A DNA stretch of 64,000 nucleotides, taken from positions 51,001 through 115,000 of the forward strand of contig NW_004085906.1 of NCBI RefSeq assembly GCF_000220395.1, given 5' to 3'. Of this stretch, positions 18,513-53,774 are shown one piece after another. The stretch's first letter is position 1; each line of letters starts with the position of its first letter. The translations under genes and the position numbers were made by a program. Source of the stretch: Ichthyophthirius multifiliis. Its lineage: Eukaryota > Ciliophora > Oligohymenophorea > Hymenostomatida. The notes below the pieces were generated by a model. The model searched no databases and was not told the DNA's origin. It saw only the letters and a program-made list of their open reading frames with translations.

Positions 18513-19723
18513 TCATTAATATTTTTTTTTCTTAGCTTTATAGTTTACAATATTTTAAATGAAATATATAATATTATGATCCTCATATTCATATTAATTA
18601 ACTATTTATTCCTTAATTTAAAAGATCTTTTCATTTAAAAGTACAGGGTTTATTCCTGTAAAAAAGTAACAAAATGCCATCCTAAGGGCACATATATCAC
18701 TTTTAGAGTCCTAAAATTTCCCCTAAAAATACTCAGGGAGCTGAATAGGTAAACTTAAAGTTTTTTATATTCCAAAAAGCATTCAGCTTCTGGGGAAATC
18801 TTCTTTATTTATGATTAACTATGCCTTATTTATTTATATTTAAGTCCTTTATATATTCGAGAACTCCCAACCGCTTAAACAAGCTTTGAAATTTGAATTT
18901 ATAAGTGCATTATTAAGTTTAAGATTTCCATAAAAAATGGTTAAGTAATTCATACTTTTTAATTATTCCTCAATTTAAAGGGTTAGGGAGATTTTTCGGC
19001 TTTTATGTCAAGAATATTTAACTTTAATCGCCGTTTTTGAATTTATGTTCAAAAAAGGATTTCGAAGGCTTCTTGAGAAATTTAATTTAGAGTAAATCTT
19101 TGTGTATTTAAAAAATCAATTTTTTTCTTTTATTTTTAATAGTTTTATTAAATTTATATAGAAATAAGTTTTTTTAATAAAAGAGATTTTATATATATAA
19201 GTTTTTTTTTTTCCTTGTTTTTATTATAATAAATATTCTTGAGTAGTTTCCAATTTACCTTATTTTGGATAAATTTTTAAATAAACTATCTTTTTGGTTT
19301 AATCATTTTAGAAAAGAAAGTGCTTTGGGTATATAAAACATCCATCAAATAAATTTTGCCTTTTTATTTTTTACTTTCATTTAAATATTTGAAAAGAAGA
19401 ATTATTTCTAGGTTTAAATTTTTTTTTTCGTAAAATATATTTTTTGCGTTTATTTTAAATTATCAAGTAAAGGAAAATCATTTTTACATTCAAATGAAGG
19501 TGATTAAAAAAATACTATTTTATAAACTTAATCAAGTTCTTTATTTTTATTTTTAGGAATATTTACAATCTTCTATATTTTTGGAAAATATTCCACATAA
19601 ATAGAAAGCTGATAATGCATCTAAAGTATCATCCTTAGAATTTTTTTAAAGTACTTTAGTATATATCCTTTCTAAGTAGTTTATTGGTGTTCGGTAGTAA
19701 TATAAATAGTATTTTATATCCAT
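18513..19723 (-). pseudogene. Degenerate protein-kinase-like gene
   Basis: The frame begins MDIKYYLYYYRTPINYLERI at 19723. Further down, kinase-like blocks appear in different frames: RFTLNQISQEAFEILF (where a glycine loop would be), NINSKTAIKVKYS (VAIK lysine region), and PEYFQGKFQDSKSDI with YFFTGINPV (APE to subdomain X). It ends at TGA 18513-18515. One T6 run near the VAIK block would need an extra T to keep frame. Two further TGAs are in frame, and neither an HRD nor a DFG motif can be read: the candidate positions give YGNLK and SGWEF. GC content is higher than the surroundings. A decayed gene is most likely; a real pseudokinase plus several base-call errors is possible. Confidence 0.5.
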
Positions 19724-19880
19724 TATAAGGTAGATTTATTCAAAAGATTTTGGAGTTTTTATTCTTAGTTAAAAGGGAGTTTTTTTAATATTTTTTTTTT
19801 TTTATTTAAAAATTAATTTAAAAAATATTAAAAAATTAAGAATATAAAATTGTTATTTGTAAAAAAAAAAAAAAAAAAAA

Positions 19881-22800
19881 ATGGATTTAGAAGAAATAGA
19901 AAGCGAAAATGATTCTGATTATGAGGAATTAACAAAAATTATTCCTTAAAAAAAAGAAAAAAACGAAAAACTTCTCAAAAGTGACTTTCAATTATTATAT
20001 ATATAATCAAATATTGCAAACTAATACTATTTAAGGAATCAATATTTACCTTTATTGACTTAAATAGTAACTAGAATTGAAAAAAAAACATTAGAATACC
20101 CCACATGTATTACTTAGAGTTAAAACCTGATAATAATAGGAGGGTATACAGGCAATTTTATCATTTATAATAAAAATGAAGGAACATATGAAGTCTATGA
20201 TACATAAAATACAATATAAGAAATAAGTTGTTTATGTATTCATTTAAATGAGAGAAATTTAGTAATAGGAGATATTGCAGGGTGTATAATTTATTATGAT
20301 TTAAAATATAAAAAATGTATAAAATGTGTAAAAAATGGTCATGAAAGTTAAATTATTAGTATAAAAATAAGTTAAATTTAAAAAACAAATGGACTATAAA
20401 TAAATTGTTTTTCAGTTGACTTAGCTGGTAATTTAAAGGAGATAATTTTAAAGAGAATCCCAGTATTTTTTAATTAAATTAAAATCGAAATTAATAGTAT
20501 TCTATGTGAGAAAGCCTAGATTTTATTAAGTGATTTCGAATAAATAAATTAAGAGAATTTATATGTATGTATTTCTCCTTTAAAAGTGATTATTTTCAAA
20601 AACTATAAGAATATTATTTATACAGAAAACAATTTATAGGCAATTAATTATAGGTGTGCTGGGAGCTTTTTTAATAGATAATTGGTTTTTATTTGGCAAA
20701 ATATAATACACTTTGTGTCTTTGGAAAAAAATAAATAAGATTATGTAGTAAATACTTTATTTGAAAAAAAAGTAGATTATGATTTGGTTTTTGCGCTTTT
20801 TTTAAATAAAAAAGTAGTTATGGTTGTTGATTTTGATTAGAATGTTTATTTTGTGAATTTTAAAGGGGAAATTTTGTAAATATTTTAATTCTAGAACCCT
20901 GTATTTGTATAAATGGGTTATATTTATGTAAACTCGTTTTCTTTTGATTTTTTTTAAGAAGAGATACTTGTTTTATAGAAAGATTTTTAAATTTTTGCTT
21001 ATAAAATGTCATGTGTAGATTATATAATGAATTAATTAATTGAAAAAGCTTAATGGAGATAGGCTATGTGTTTTTTATTTTAAATAAAAAACCAAAAAGA
21101 TGATTTTATTTAAGAAAGTAGGGAAAATATTACCGAATTAATAAAAATTCTATGTATTAAATATATACAAACGTCTATATTGGCTTTTTAACAAAAAAAT
21201 ATAAATAAAAAAATGGTGGTTTTTACCCTTATAGAGTTCCTGGTTATATGTGAAGAGTTTGATTATTTATTTAATTAAGTAAAATAAATTATCGAAGATT
21301 CCTTTTTTTAAGAAAAGGAAAATTAAAGTAATTTTTTTGATTGTTTAATACCTTTTATAAGGCTTTAAAAATTGAAAAAACTTTCTTTTTTTTAATTAAA
21401 ATTACTTATAGAATTTTTATAATAGAAAGAAATAAATAATAACAATAAAATTATTGATTAATTAATAATGTAATCTTGTCTTAATTTAGATGATAATTTA
21501 ATGGAATTATGTATTAAAAATCACTATATTAAGGCTTTGATACATATATGTACTAAATAAGGGAAAACAGGTGATGTTTATATGTCTCCTTTAATTATTT
21601 TATGGTCTAAATATGTAAAAGAATAAAATAATAATGATTTATAGAATTAATGTTTAAAATATATACAATATTGTATTAAAAAAGGAATTAATAAAATCAA
21701 CGATTACCCTACTTTAGTTAAATAGATAACTGAATGGCTTTTTGACCCAAGAATTATTACTGAAATAATTCTTAAAGTTGCAAAAGTAGCTTTTTAGACA
21801 TTTTTTTATTTTTTTATAAATGATGCGGGTTAAATAATTACAGAATCGAGTGATTTAATAATTTAGAAATAAAAAAATCAATATAAAAACAAATTGGGAG
21901 AAATTTTAAATTAAATAATTAATTGTTAAAATGACTTAATTATTTAGCTTGAACTATAAAAAAATAATAATTTAATTTAAAATATTTAATTTGAATCTAA
22001 TATATTTTTAACTAAATTGTATTTGTCATAATTACATGCAAAAGAAGAAAACTAGAAATCAAATAATTAAATATTGTTAACTATCTCATAATCTGCCTTA
22101 AAAAATTGTTCTTCGTTTACTCCTTTATATAAACCTATTACGTTTTTTAAGCTTTCTAAGTAATAAATATTTTAAATTCTAGAATTCATAATTTCTAAAA
22201 AAAAGCTATTTATACTATCTATTATGATAATGATCTTTCATATAATTAAAAACCTAAAAAAATTAATAATAATTAGAAAAAAATTAACAATAATAAATAG
22301 AATAAAATTAATAATAATAAATAAATTAATTAGAAAATAATAAATCAATAAATAAAAATGAATAAGAAATTGATGAAGTTTAATAAACATAATTATTATA
22401 TTCAACAATTAACTAAAGTATTTGCTATTTAGACAAGACTTAAATTTAATATTTAAATAATTTAATATTAGCTTAAGACTCTTTTTTAGAATATAAAGCT
22501 CATTTATATGCTGAAAATAAGTAGTTTAAAATCGCTTTTGATCTATATTTGAATTCTTAAAATAGTATAATACGAACTCGAGTATTTGCCTGGTTAAAAA
22601 ATAATTTAATTTAATAAAAACATGTCTAGAAGAATCAAAATGAAGTCTGTATAATTAAATCTTTAATCGAATAAAAATTAACTGAATTAATAAAAATTAA
22701 TTCTGAGAAAACTCGAGAGATAATCAGGGATTTCCTCTAAGAAAGTGAACAGAGAATAATCCTTAAATTAGACGTTTTTCCTGAATTATAATTCGAATAT

Positions 22801-30717: not shown

Positions 30718-33700
30718 TCAGATATAACTTAAGAAAGTCAAAGATATATAAGATAATCTTAATAAAACGAACAAAAGGAGAATTTTGTTCAACAGCAATA
30801 TTATCAATAGAATTAATATACTCAACAATAATAATAAATTCCAATGTAACCTTAATAATAACCTCTTTCTTATCGAATTAATACTGATTAATCAAAATCT
30901 CCTCGAAGAGAAAGCAGCAGCTTATCAAGAAGTTAAAGTGGAGCAAATAATTATTAATAATATACAGAAACATATTATTTAACAGGATGGGGAAATTCCA
31001 AAAGTGGTTAACTAAGTGCTTCTAAACTGACAACAAACGCCATCCAATCATTTGGAAATGGAATTATAAATATAAGTGGTGGAGAAAATCATACAATGAT
31101 AATAGATTGTAAGAAGCAAAAATATATATATATTATTTTTTAGCATTTTTTATTTTTTCTGTAATTTTTATTTTTTAAAAAAATGCCATAATCAATTTTT
31201 TCTTGCTTTTTTTTTGTTGGATTGCGTTTTTTAAAAAAAAAAAATACAGAAAAAATCTAATGTTAAAAAATAATATATACTTTTTTAACAAAAAAAAATA
31301 AAAGAAAAATAAGAATTATATGCATGTGGAAACAATTTATATGGTTAATTGGGTATAGAGGGTGCTAATATAATAATGAAACCAACAATAATACCTGTAA
31401 AAAATAAATAAAAATTATAAAAAGATATATATATATATATAAAGCATCTTAAAGATATAAAAATATCAATGGTAAGTTGTGGTTCAGATCATACATTTGC
31501 ACTAACTAATAAAGGCGAAGTATATTGCTGGGGTTTAAATTTAAAAGGATAATTAGGTATAGGAAATTTCGAAAGTTAACACTAACCTGTTTTAGTGTAT
31601 TCTTTATTACCTTTTGGTTAAAATAATTAAAAAGTTAAAAAGAAACAAGAGGAGAAAAACGCTGATTTAACAAATCATAAAAGACTTAAAAGTTCTAATG
31701 ACTTGCCTTTAAATTCTGAGGAGAATTGCTTAAAAGAAAGGTCAAATTCTATCGAAAACATGATGGAATAATTGAATACTATAAAATAAATTTCTAATAA
31801 AACTCTAAAAAATTCCAATAATTATAACATTTTCGGAGGAAGTGATGTTTTGACTGAAATTGTACTTGGAAATGATGAAGTTGTGACTAATATGTCGTGT
31901 GGAACACTCCATACAATTGTTTTAACCAATAAAAATAGAATGTTCTCTACTGGTTATGGTGAAACTTATGCTTTAGGACATGGTGATAAATAGACTTTGT
32001 GTTAGTTTAAATATATTAATACTATGTAGAAGTTTTAGCCTTCTTATGGAAAAAATTCGACTGATTTATCACCTAAAATTGAAAAAATAGATAAGATTTC
32101 ATGCGGGTTAACACATTCGTGTTGTATTATGGGAGGAAAAGCCTTTATGTGGGGAATTTTGGGATAGAAAGAGTCTCTTATTTTCTAAACTCCGACCGAA
32201 GTTGAATTTTAATAAGGAAATAATAACTCTTTTAATATTATAGATGCTAAAGCAGGAGATTGTTTTACTTTGTTTTTAAATAATAAAGGAGAAGCATATA
32301 CTATTGGGGAAAATATAGATGGATAATTATGTACAGAAATAATTAAAAATAATAATTTTAATAATTATTATGAATATCCAATTAAAGTTTAAAATATACC
32401 AATAATAAATTAAGTAATTTATAAAATATAACAAATAGATATATTTTCATATTTATATTTAAACAAAAATAGATTGCCGTAGGAAAGAATCATTGTCTTG
32501 TTGTTTCTGCTGATTTTAAAAATATATATGGATGGGGAGCTAATTGCTATGGTTAAGTAACTGGTAGATTAACAAAAAATACATAAATTATATCTGCAGT
32601 TAAAGTGTAATAATTAAGTTCTGAAATAAAGGATATTAAAATAATATGCGGAGCATACCATACTATGATGCTGTGTAATAAAGGACTTTCTGGAAAGGAG
32701 TTTATATAGAAAGAAGATGAAATTTAAAATAGTTAAAGTGGAAATATTAATAATAATAATAATGAAGAATTGGATAAAATAAAGAAATAGAATTAAGTTG
32801 AAAATGAAAAATAATAAAAAAAAATCGAAGAATCTCAAAAAGAAGTGGAAGCCTTGACTAAAATGAATATAAATTTAATAAAAAGTCAGGAAAAATTACA
32901 AAAGGAGTTTAAAATTAAAGAAATCGATTATTAAAAATAACTTAAAGAAATGTAAAAATTAATAAAATCTCAAGAATAAACCTTAAACGGAGGTCAAAAC
33001 TAAGAAAATGTACCTAAATTCGAAATTAAAGGTTTGGAAAAATATTCTGGTAAAAACTTGAATTTTAGAACTTTTAATAGTAATTTAGAAATAGAATTTT
33101 CTGAATTATAAATCGAAAAATAAATATCAGAAGGGGGCTATGGGATTATTTATAGAGCCAAATGGAGAGAAACTACTGTCGCAGTTAAAAAATTCAAAAT
33201 AGATTCAATTACGGAAAGTAATATTAGAGATTTCCTTTCAGAATGTCATGCAATGGAAGCTTTGAGGCATCCAAATATAGTCATGTTTTTAGGCGCCTGT
33301 ACTAAACCTCCTAATTTTTGTATTATTTTGGAATTCTGTCATAGAGGAAGTCTTTGGAGTTTACTTTAGAATCATGAAATAGCGTTATCCTGGGAAGAAA
33401 GAAGGAAAATTGCAATAGACGCAGCAAAAGGGGTACATTATTTACACTCTTGTAATCCACCAGTACTTCATAGAGATTTGAAAAGCTTGAATTTATTATT
33501 AGATGATAATTTGACTTGTAAATTAGCTGATTTTGGATGGACAAAAGCTATGGATAATTATATGTCAAATAGAATAGGTAATTTTTTTTAAAAAAAAAAA
33601 TAAAATAAAATAAAAATAATTATATTTAATTATGTTAAAATTATATTAATAAAATAATAGGTACATATTAATGGATGGCTCCAGAAGTAATTTCTTCAAA

Positions 33701-34382
33701 TAGTTATACCGAAAAAGCTGATGTTTTTAGTTATGGGATTATTTTATGGGAAATATCATCTAGAGAACCTCCTTATAGAAGTAAATATATATGTAAAAAA
33801 TTAATATATTTTTATATAAATAAAGATAAATCTGGATAAACTGTTTCTGTTGAAGTACTTTAAAATGATTTAAGACCAAGTATTCCTAAAAAAACACCAG
33901 AAGGTTTTTGTAATTTAATGAAAAGATGTTGGGTAATAATTTACAGAAAAATATATTATTAATTAATTATAAAATTAAATATAAATAAAAAAATAGGTAT
34001 TTATTATAGATATATTTAATTATAATATAAAATAAAAACAAAAAAAATTATCAATAATTCTTAATATATATAATTAATTTTTTATATTTATTTTTATTAT
34101 TAATATATTATATTTTTTTTTTATTAATAATTATTTTATAATGTAATCTGTTTATATATTATAAAATAATAAATATATATTAATTTATAGATTTATATAT
34201 TTATATTAATATAATTTATATATATATATATATTTATATATTTATATATTTATATATTTATATAATTATTTTTATTTTTATTTTATTTATTAATTTTTTC
34301 TACATAATAGGATAGAGATCCTTAAAAAAGACCTTCTTTTAAAGAAATTATTAGAATTTTAGAAACAATTTCATTAAAATGA
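30709..34382 (+). CDS. RCC1-repeat protein fused to a C-terminal TKL kinase
   Basis: Seven exons splice fully in phase: 30709-31108, 31314-31396, 31445-32413, 32473-33577, 33661-33780, 33826-33932 and 34311-34382, giving 951 residues. After a Q/S-rich N-terminus there are RCC1 blades: [47 protein letters not shown] and [10 protein letters not shown] charged coiled coil follows at roughly residues 600-690. The kinase domain has the loop [35 protein letters not shown] and YQWMAPEVI, ending in CWDRDPQKRPSF. The catalytic lysine, HRD and DFG are present, so it should be active. RCC1 propellers bind proteins or chromatin; the kinase substrate is unknown. No frameshift is seen. Confidence 0.93.
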
Positions 34383-50546: not shown

Positions 50547-53500
50547 TCAAGCTTTTTATATATTTTCAAATTATTGAGTTTAAGTTTGATAATCTTCCCA
50601 ACACTTAAGCATTTATTGTGCCTAATTTTATTTTTAGTAATAAAGAATTAAATTATATTTATTACTATTGGGTATCTCTTTTAAAAAAATATTTAATTTT
50701 CTTATCAAAAAAAAAAAAAATGATTTTTTTACCACCTAATTAAAAAAGTTAAAATTAAATTATAAATTTATAAATAAATAAATTTTACATCCTATTCATT
50801 TTGTTATTTAGTAAATAATTAATAAATATTATTTTAATTTTTTTTAATTTAATAAATTATTTTATGTGTATGTTTACTCCCTATTTATTTTATATATATT
50901 AGCATTTTTAAAATTTTTTTTAGAAATTACTTTCTATAAAGTAATATTAAAAATATTATCGTGTTTATATAATTTAAATTACGTACTTTTATTAAAATAT
51001 ATTTATGATAAATAAATTATAAATATTATTATAATATTTACAATCTAATTTTTTACAATTTTTATTTATTTTTCTTTATATATATACATCCTAATATAAT
51101 TTTTTTTTATTTATTTATAAAAAAAATATACAAACTAAAAATTATTCAAAATATTCCGAAAAATTAATAAATTTTATTTAAAATCTTACAACCTTTTTTA
51201 ATATGAAATATTTTATTTATTATAATGGTTTTTTTTTTTTTTAGTTTACAAACTGATATAAAGTAAATTTATATTATTAATCAATTTTTTTATTTTATTT
51301 TACTTTCTACTTCTATATTTTTATAAAGTAATTTAATGTTTTATATAATAAATTATTATATTACATTCTAGTTTATAATTTTAAAATATAATATAGTTTT
51401 TTAAACTAGACATTTTTTTACCATCTAATTTAATATGTTTTAATATTTAATTATATTTATTGTTTTATTTTTTTTACTGCACACTGAAATTATTATTTTT
51501 TTGAAAATTTTTTTTCGAAAATATAATATTTTTAGATTTTACATACTAATTAATATTAAAATAATGAATAATTTTTTTTTTTCAAATAATTATATTTATT
51601 TTACAATCTTTTTTATTTAAAATTAATTACTAATTTATTTATAATCGCTTATACTTCAAACTTCAAAAATTAATAATTAAAAAAAATACTATAGACTATT
51701 TTTTATACTCCCTAACATATAATTTAATAAAAGTAAAACTTGAAAATAAATAATACTATCTTTATTCAAAAAAGTTTTAATTTATTTAATTTTTTTTACA
51801 AACTAAAAATATTAAATTATTATTTTTTTCTAATTAATTTTTATACAAACTAATTTTTATAAAAATTAATTAAATATTTTTTTTAGTTTAATTTTCTATT
51901 TATTACTCCCTAAATATAAATAGAAAAGATATTTAAATCTAATATTTTACTATCTAAATTAATAAAAGCTATATTTTAATCTTATATATAAATATTACTA
52001 TCTAAATATTAAAATTTGTTAATAAATAATTTTTATTATCTAAATTCTCTTAAATTGATTTATAGTGTTTATTTTTTTTAATATAATAACTTATATATTA
52101 GTTTTATATTTCATTTTTTCTTATATATGAATTCATTATAAACACTATTCAAATCAAAATAAAAGTATTTAGTTTTCTATTATATTTATTTTCGCTGACA
52201 TCCTATTTATTTTGTCAAAATAATTTAGGTTTATATATAATTATATTACACACTATTTATTATAAAAAATTAGAGTTTGTATAAAGTTGCTTTTAATCTT
52301 AGTTACTCCCTATTTACATTTAAATTACAATCTTTAATAAAAAAGTATATAATATTACATCCTTTATAAAATTAAAAAAATAAAAATCGATTTATTATAA
52401 TATAATATACTCTCTAAAAATAATAATATTTATATTTATTTTTCTAAAAAAGAAAACATTTTATTTATTTACAATCTAATTAATAATAAATGATACAAAA
52501 CTGTAATTTTTAAATATTATTTACATTCTAATAAAAAATATATTCCATAGAATATAGTATAAATGTAATACTATATCTTCCTATAAAGTAAAAAATATAA
52601 AAAATATAAATATATTTAATTATCTTACATAATTTGTATACTAAAAGAAAAACAAACAAACAAAAATAAATTTCCTCTTTTAAAAAAAAATAAAAAAAAT
52701 ACTTAATATTTAATATTCATATGTTCTTTCAAATATTTATTAATTTCACTCACTACGTAATTTTTAATTTCATTTATTTTAATATTATTTCCCTAAATTT
52801 TTCCTTGTTAATCCCTAAAAATTTAAATATTATGATAACTTTTTACCTAAAAATATTTATTTTATTCCTATTTTAAAATATAATTAAAAAATCTAATAAT
52901 AAAAAAAAAATAATACTTTTTTTTATTTATTATTTTATATATTATATTTTTTATCTAAAAGTCTCTAATCTCTATATTTAATTTCAATAATCTCTAATTC
53001 TAATTATTTGTGTAATTCACAAATTACATTTACTATTAATATACGATTTTCAATTTTAAACTAAATCATTTAAAAAGCTAAATAAATCAAATCTTCATCT
53101 TCTTATCCAATTACATTAGGAAATTATTTGTTTTCTTCTTTTAATATAAAAAGTGAATTTTAATCCACTCCAAATATCTCGGCAATAATAATACCTGCGC
53201 TATATATATTAGATTCTTTTATTATTCTTCCAATAATTTATTCAGGGGCACAATAAAGGGATAGCTATTTACTTTTATTATATTAAGAAAGTCCAAAATC
53301 AGCTAATATGCATGTTAATTCATTTTGATTTTCCAAAAAAATGTTGGATGGTTTTAAATTATAGTGTATTATATTATTTTAATGGAGATCTTATAGACCA
53401 TAAAGTAGGCCTAAGGCCAAAACTATTTTTTAATAACGAGAAGTTTTCCTTTTTTCATTTAGAAACTTTTCCAAATTACCTTCAGGATAATATTTCATAA

Positions 53501-53774
53501 GCATAAAAGCACTTTAGAATTAATCTTTAAGAAAAAAATCGTATAAAGTGTACACGTTTGAAGTTTTAATATCCTTGATTTATAAATTTAATTATTAAAT
53601 CGTATATGGATTATCTAATTCAGAAATATTTAGTATTTTTAATATTAATTATTTATTATTTTCTTAATTGAGACATAAAAATACTGAAGTTCTATAACCA
53701 GTTCCCAAATGCTTAATTACTTAAAAATTTAAAGTATTTTTAATAAAAGATTATTATTTTTCTAATTATTCCAT
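50547..53774 (-). CDS. Kinase-like gene with HRD to HYN change and a 3' chain of micro-exons
   Basis: The first exon, about 52917-53774, encodes a protein-kinase domain: start MEQLEKQQSFIKNTLNF, loop HLGTGYRTSVFL, lysine in LILKIL, then DLHQNNIIHYNLKPSN, LADFGLSQY and LYCAPEQII. The catalytic HRD aspartate is asparagine, whereas DFG is intact. Next come exons 52847-52892 and 52703-52814 (NEIKNYVVSEINKYLKEH); joining them to exon 1 needs one extra base. Downstream, 50666-52640 holds the micro-exon chain, all multiples of three, and a last exon 50547-50621 reads AQQMLKCWEDYQTQTQ and ends in TGA. That the chain belongs to this gene is an inference from orientation and phase. Confidence 0.6.
50666..52640 (-). 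other. Array of about 35 putative micro-exons, mostly 3 nt
   Basis: On the minus strand the pattern (A/T)AG-exon-GT(A/T) recurs about 35 times. Exons (plus coordinates): 52629-52640 (12 nt), 52572-52580 (9), then 3-nt exons at 52525, 52473, 52411, 52359, 52329, 52307, 52250, 52200 (donor GTC), 51999, 51951, 51907, 51847, 51800, 51757, 51709, 51605, 51543, 51422, 51365, 51304, 51250, 51190, 51132, 51088, 51042, 50983, 50931, 50878, 50789 and 50733. Two 6-nt exons are at 51690-51695 and 51478-51483, and a 12-nt one is at 50666-50677. The codons differ (GAT, GGA, TTT, ATT, TGT, ATG, TAC and others) while AG and GT stay fixed, and none is TGA. The spacers are near-pure AT, mostly 20-75 nt; one of 13 nt is too short to splice. 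Confidence 0.6.

Follow-up and report, generated by a model that had tools for sequence, protein, structure and literature searches.

Candidate single-codon exons in a kinase-like gene and in a putative cysteine-rich gene family of an AT-rich, ciliate-like genome

Genes assembled from very small exons have been described in several eukaryotes, and the comparisons made here follow the openly available portions of each source. The micro-exon genes (MEGs) of Schistosoma mansoni contain 10–20 short exons, mostly of 15 bp with a range of 3–81 bp (a minimum of 6 bp is also given), separated by introns of 100 to almost 5000 bp; exon lengths are mostly multiples of three, and the products are secreted with a signal peptide (PMC10526429). 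In Tetrahymena, leucine-rich repeat (LRR) genes carry long arrays of equal 90-bp exons, all in intron phase 2 and forming an interlocked unit (PMC6564038). Exons of a single codon or less can evidently be spliced, as in the 3-bp micro-exon of Drosophila homothorax (PMC7392893), the two 3-nt exons of fungal lipS copies (PMC5639578), and the one-nucleotide exon of CYP621A (PMC12940212), with one or two such exons per gene in these accounts. A literature search, its coverage lying outside most subscription journals and bioRxiv, found no run of single-codon exons.

The locus analyzed here lies in a 64-kb stretch of DNA (hereafter the window; 15.1% G+C) from a 45.0-Mb assembly of 937 contigs, which was also searched as a whole. 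Features typical of oligohymenophorean ciliates are present (TAA and TAG as glutamine, TGA as stop, GGGGTT repeats, and introns near 50 nt); the published genome of Ichthyophthirius multifiliis is described as about 49 Mb with 15.9% GC and GGGGTT telomeres (PMC3341644). We conclude that the block at 50666–52640 is very probably the 3′ part of a kinase-like protein-coding gene, split at nearly every codon boundary by spliceosomal GT–AG introns of about 50 nt in phase 0. A far longer version of this predicted architecture is present elsewhere in the genome, in a multigene family whose products are rich in Cys and probably secreted. The observations behind this reading are the spacing of the units, the composition of their splice sites, their phase, an exon structure shared among paralogs, and the codon-like evolution of the family triplets. 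As in MEGs, short 3n exons occur in series, and the family carries a signal-peptide-like exon; unlike MEGs, with which the comparison here is one of architecture, single chains reach 129 exons, mostly of 3 nt, in a ciliate-like genome, and long introns are replaced by introns mostly of 40–62 nt (40–86 nt in the window, with one of 198 nt). Relative to the Tetrahymena arrays, the exons are of 3 bp and phase 0, and the family peptides have no LRR match in Pfam. Dozens to more than 100 tiny exons per gene also set these loci apart from homothorax, lipS, and CYP621A.

A preliminary description of this block, made by eye, had proposed about 30 AG-NNN-GT(A/T) units on the minus strand, and these are real: 29 such words occur at 50666–52640, as compared with 1, 1, and 4 for spacers of four, five, and six nucleotides, so that the excess of AG-N4-GT or AG-N5-GT words that would count against the proposal is absent. 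The plus strand of the block contains one AG-N3-GT(A/T) word, 200 dinucleotide shuffles yield a mean of 2.25 and a maximum of 7, and the rest of the window holds 1.4–1.5 per 2 kb. We scored the block with a dynamic-programming chain model (AG, an exon of 3n nucleotides without TGA, GT, and introns of 30–260 nt). The minus strand scores 224 and the plus strand 2.5; shuffles of the block (n = 200) average 9.3 with a maximum of 24.3, and of 118 window tiles, counting both strands, those clear of the block reach at most 10.6, while one touching its end scores 14.1. No comparable motif density is therefore found elsewhere in the window. Splice-site matrices trained without the window leave the score essentially as it was (224.9). 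When the stop rule is removed and exon lengths are set to 3n, 3n+1, or 3n+2, the chain scores are 223, 7, and 5, respectively, in agreement with the proposed divisibility by three. Because chain scoring by design prefers 3-nt exons, the informative controls are the shuffles, the other strand, the other tiles, and this offset test. None of the 29 units collected by pattern alone is TGA, as had been stated, a number too small to tell by itself. G+C at positions 1, 2, and 3 of the 28 single-codon triplets is 0.36, 0.21, and 0.11; the triplets are poor in G+C at position 3, as codons are. The statement that these units are the only G/C-containing words of the block was too strong, the window introns having 10.5% G+C.

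The gene model runs 5′ to 3′ on the minus strand. Exon 1 (52917–53774, ATG at 53774) comprises 286 codons and encodes, with TAA and TAG read as glutamine, a protein-kinase-like domain (PF00069, E 2.7e-27). The chain model adds exon 2 (52847–52867, 21 nt, EQNKYFQ) and exon 3 (52703–52792, 90 nt), the final conventional exon ahead of the run. By the counts and the chain model, the run itself (50666–52640) contains 34 short exons, 28 of them single-codon. It opens with YTNY (52629–52640, 12 nt) and EDI (52572–52580, 9 nt), followed by the single codons N (AAT, 52525–52527), I (ATT, 52473–52475), R (AGA, 52411–52413), D (GAT, 52359–52361), G (GGA, 52307–52309), C (TGT, 52250–52252), and an uncertain D (GAT, 52200–52202) with the odd donor GTC. 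The stretch that follows (52002–52199) still lacks a clean unit, as the preliminary description had cautioned; it is modeled as one 198-nt intron and may hide an exon. Beyond it lie I (ATA, 51999–52001), I (ATA, 51951–51953), G (GGA, 51907–51909), F (TTT, 51847–51849), F (TTT, 51800–51802), and I (ATA, 51757–51759). A 13-nt spacer noted in the original reading can be removed here by placing G (GGA, 51709–51711) and the 6-nt FE (TTTGAA, 51655–51660), followed by a 47-nt intron; this pair is a manual choice over the TCTATA at 51695–51690 taken by the program, and was preferred because the introns then measure 45, 48, and 47 nt. The model continues with I (ATT, 51605–51607), Y (TAT, 51543–51545), CA (TGTGCA, 51478–51483), M (ATG, 51422–51424), N (AAT, 51365–51367), KQK (AAGTAGAAA, 51304–51312), F (TTT, 51250–51252), V (GTT, 51190–51192), F (TTT, 51132–51134), D (GAT, 51088–51090), I (ATT, 51042–51044), Y (TAC, 50983–50985), K (AAA, 50931–50933), G (GGA, 50878–50880), D (GAT, 50789–50791), V (GTG, 50733–50735), and the 12-nt RYPI (50666–50677), and ends in a last exon, AQQMLKCWEDYQTQTQQFENIQKA (50547–50621), with a TGA stop at 50547. 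The RYPI end of the peptide proposed earlier stands; since one exon is AAGTAGAAA, the residues before it are corrected, giving MNKQKFVFDIYKGDV.RYPI. The phase carries, as claimed, from the kinase-like part through all 34 exons to the TGA-ended last exon, and the 3n micro-exons form a symmetric series between conventional exons.

The architecture could be real and the window locus nonetheless a decaying copy, its run no longer translated or spliced. The kinase part has HYN at the position usually occupied by HRD, no close paralog of the gene was found among the matches in the assembly, and the GTC donor and the 198-nt stretch interrupt the run; we nevertheless consider decay improbable, as the chain of 34 exons keeps one phase from the kinase part to the terminal TGA. 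The model demands 3n lengths and forbids TGA; the absence of TGA from units taken by pattern alone and the collapse of the non-3n chains do not depend on those demands. Searches with the spliced tail returned no Pfam match for two of its three versions and one below the cut-off for the third, and in the PDB nothing convincing (two chains at E 0.6 and 1.4). A resemblance of the tail to a kinase C-lobe, seen by eye, was dropped without Pfam or PDB support. In a genome search for a contiguous, intron-poor copy of the tail, only its own last exon matched. The kinase query matched two protein database entries with an organism name, both bacterial, so that ciliate relatives may be missing from that database. 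Elsewhere in the window, positions 31100–33918 encode RCC1 repeats and then a kinase domain in an overlapping frame, perhaps one gene with an intron, and positions 19077–22358 hold a 1094-codon frame with a Vps8-like beta-propeller match.

The ends and lengths of the spacers fit spliceosomal introns. GT…AG on one strand was in part imposed, in that the ends were pre-set by the search pattern; the strand bias and the lengths were not. Among run introns, GTA accounts for 91% of donors and TAG for 70% of acceptors. The window's putative ordinary introns are roughly similar, with A at donor position +3 in 0.69 (0.91 in runs) and T at acceptor position −3 in 0.38 (0.70 in runs), though these are few (n = 13) and were chosen by an ad hoc filter. 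Spacers of 35–75 nt have a median of 50 nt and a 5–95% range of 40–62 nt, and the first Ichthyophthirius intron class has a reported mean of 48.3 bp (PMC5014332). The available text of the same source describes a lack of multiples of three among Ichthyophthirius short introns, and in this the run introns differ, with 168 of 508 lengths divisible by three and no deficit (PMC5014332). Among family introns of 35–75 nt, 275 of 832 are of 3n length, and only 38 of those 275 hold an in-frame TGA, so that most 3n introns, if retained, would be read through.

Spacers could also be removed as DNA. Ciliates do eliminate DNA segments lying between macronucleus-destined segments, and the contigs might be germline (micronuclear), the triplets being tiny macronucleus-destined segments between internal eliminated sequences (IESs). 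TA stands near both spacer ends, as the donor and acceptor frequencies imply, and the nine family contigs are short (11–36 kb). IESs of the Paramecium type are excised at a TA repeat, leaving one TA; reasoning from the sequence, cutting at two TAs would here leave 7 nt per unit and a rotating frame, whereas the units are codon-like triplets, and the strand-specific GT…AG ends and the spacer lengths fit introns. The genome further contains GGGGTT repeats, several at contig starts, as macronuclear chromosomes do, which does not settle the nucleus of origin; the reversed control for this search was equally frequent because the reversed repeat is the same repeat. We regard elimination as DNA as very improbable, less so only than the tandem-repeat reading considered next.

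We assign next to no probability to the reading in which the units, with their conserved AG and GT ends, are a minisatellite or an accident of base composition in AT-rich DNA. The shuffle and offset controls of the block speak against it, and the window spacers have no consensus unit in common: a single pair of introns among 528 lies above the 99.9th shuffle percentile (0.5 expected), the output of Tandem Repeats Finder is limited to short AT-rich runs of ~2–5 copies, and similarity averages 0.150 between neighbors as compared with 0.121 over all pairs. Some sequences do behave as this reading would have it. The region at C2:164194 looks like a plain repeat, and many spacers of one family gene, C550, are alike around codons 17–49. 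In this gene, many of introns 16–50 of the chain are mutually similar and differ from the introns on either side, with a unit of ~59 bp by eye; this stretch encodes a part of the protein that is poorly conserved. C550 introns outside that part have only 0–2 similar partners each. Similarity in C550 is 0.168 between neighbors, 0.176–0.198 at a distance of 2–6, and 0.137 at ≥20, with 0.128 in shuffles; the similarity of neighbors thus does not exceed that of introns separated by a few positions, and the test gives no demonstration that neighboring units were copied. Introner elements, which place similar introns at many sites, resemble this part of C550 and differ in that the similarity is confined to it and absent from the window; constant phase 0 and one-codon spacing are likewise not as expected from random introner insertion.

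The putative micro-exon architecture recurs in a paralogous family on nine contigs. On the plus strand of C6, AG-Nk-GTA words number 110 at N3 and 3 each at N2 and N4, with 10 at N6, 7 at N9, and 9 at N1; the predominance of N3 extends to six other family stretches. The longest chain, that of gene C550, comprises 129 exons, 113 of them single-codon, all on one contig. Splicing 12 chains from the nine contigs in silico, several of them partial and that of C48 holding the C-terminal part only, yields an alignment of a conserved Cys-rich peptide: C-x-C-x-Y-x-D-x-C-L-x-C-R … H-x-x-I-C-x-x-C … C-x-x-x-C-x-x-C … G-T-Y. Single copies depart from this pattern in places. Upstream of the run, C6, C39, C238, C251, and C550 carry an exon that supplies the ATG (MSK or MIQK) and a signal-peptide-like exon of 57 or 60 nt, that is, five of the eight contigs holding that part; the pattern used was written after seeing those five copies, and it found no match in C100, C281, or C433. 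The window gene showed no such exon. For the family, the exon at the C-terminal end is uncertain, as the copies disagree in frame. These features suggest that the family proteins are Cys-rich and probably secreted.

The exon structure was compared at the 174 codon boundaries that four or more chains contain. At 144 of them the chains do not differ, 107 of these being split in every chain; the other 30 vary, some perhaps by misalignment. Since boundary states are mostly common to all chains, most of the run predates the divergence of the copies. The family peptides found no relative in a protein database that apparently holds few eukaryotes and no Pfam match above the cut-off, and a further PDB search with the spliced peptides gave nothing convincing (one chain at E 0.25). 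A genome search for a contiguous, intron-poor copy of the family peptide, run without a positive control, found none. The ends of C6 overlap, 423 of 430 bases being identical at a period of 10865, so that either the molecule is circular or the gene unit is repeated in tandem; between gene units, C6 has a richer open stretch (L039 4736–4885, 21% G+C) with a weak relative in C550. Matches lie on both strands of C348 and of C550, which would fit a head-to-head arrangement of family units.

The family is large enough to ask whether the triplets change as codons do. In the nine contigs, 757 units taken by pattern only, with no stop-codon rule applied at any stage, include no TGA, as against 20.4 expected from position frequencies, and include 55 TGT and 42 TGC; units with a neighboring unit on both sides include none in 557 (15.8 expected). 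DNA-only alignments, using no peptides, were made between every two of eight contigs (28 pairs; C48 excluded), with a base identity of 81–86%. They place 1793 units without gaps, AG and GT being kept in 1705 and lost in 88. Triplets are identical in 705 of the 1705, synonymous in 181, and non-synonymous in 819; with 819 of 1000 changed triplets non-synonymous, the triplets are moderately constrained apart from Cys and similar positions. Cysteine is kept as cysteine in 226 of 235 units, 81 of them through a TGT/TGC swap, and 175 of the 581 one-base differences leave the amino acid unchanged (86 expected, maximum 108 in 500 simulations). The pair C6 and C39, inspected by eye, has the same codon-like pattern. 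Of the 12 columns of the peptide alignment that are Cys throughout, 10 use both TGT and TGC; a Gln column contains four CAA and two TAA, plus one Glu. Synonymous cases account for 253 of the 738 one-base differences in this alignment (105 expected), which by construction favors synonymous pairs. All pair counts, from DNA and peptide alignments, reuse the same paralogs, and the events are non-independent. The direction is clear, and the family triplets appear to evolve as codons, with the cysteine result hard to explain otherwise; the absence of TGA, the synonymous swaps, and the conserved protein also count against a minisatellite. For the window run, a putative coding role is supported by its spacing, its splice sites, and analogy to the family. 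Together with the spacing and offset controls, the codon-like triplets of these paralogs outside the window lend support to the original proposal of an extreme micro-exon gene.

Micro-exon chains appear to be more widespread in the assembly. A search pattern of three consecutive units has 1090 matches as compared with 51 for the reversed control; with a Cys triplet first it has 102 as compared with 2, at ~100 places among the matches listed, on at least 20 contigs; and a third version has 177 as compared with 13. A two-unit pattern with gaps of 10–40 shows no excess (1105, with 1267 for the reversed control), as expected if most introns are longer, and so gives no support. These are counts of matches and not of genes, and some are plain repeats (C2): at C2:164194–164420, an AT repeat carrying AGTTAGTA mimics the pattern, with a chain score of only 26.9. 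The stretches read comprise the nine contigs of the one paralogous family and small parts of two other loci, apparently further genes: C764, with 26 exons in its chain, and C68, with 23 exons grading from 54 nt down to one codon. Runs in these two and in the window start with a 12-nt and a 9-nt exon, WASY.DNI and WDNY.EQM in C764 and C68 and YTNY.EDI in the window, which may reflect common descent or chance. In C764 and C68, the Cys and His residues of upstream open frames are spaced in a way that resembles, by eye, a B-box zinc finger.

Transcription, splicing and its order, function, and a window run that behaves like those of the family are inferred from this architecture. The spliceosome may take each short AT-rich intron as a unit, by intron definition, and would remove introns one after another. 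Because an acceptor and the next donor, 3 nt apart, could hardly be occupied at once, the donor that follows a codon would come into use only once that codon has joined the exon growing upstream. MEG micro-exons are subject to alternative skipping; here, with every exon of 3n length and in phase 0, skipping any of them would preserve the reading frame. About 130 introns per transcript would need very accurate splicing, which counts against the explanation.

Repeated intron insertion, as first suggested, is one of two readings of how such genes arose; insertion at every codon boundary leaves the phase 0 found throughout without explanation. Copying of an intron-plus-codon unit would account for the constant phase more directly. 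More tentatively, and on balance we think it rather unlikely, one codon and one intron may form a heritable unit that is copied and lost like a minisatellite: proteins would then gain or lose single residues, symmetric units could be skipped in frame, and a secreted family could vary codon by codon through splicing.

If transcripts confirm the predicted structures, these would be the most finely divided genes found in our literature comparison, as in the C550 chain. Such genes would escape any gene finder or read mapper that sets a lower bound on exon length, and other AT-rich genomes may conceal similar ones. If true, the architecture would test the lower limit of exon size when splice sites pair across the intron, and would place a demand on splicing accuracy, as 130 introns removed with 99% accuracy each would leave 27% correct mRNA. 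It would also bear on how introns multiply while their phase stays constant.
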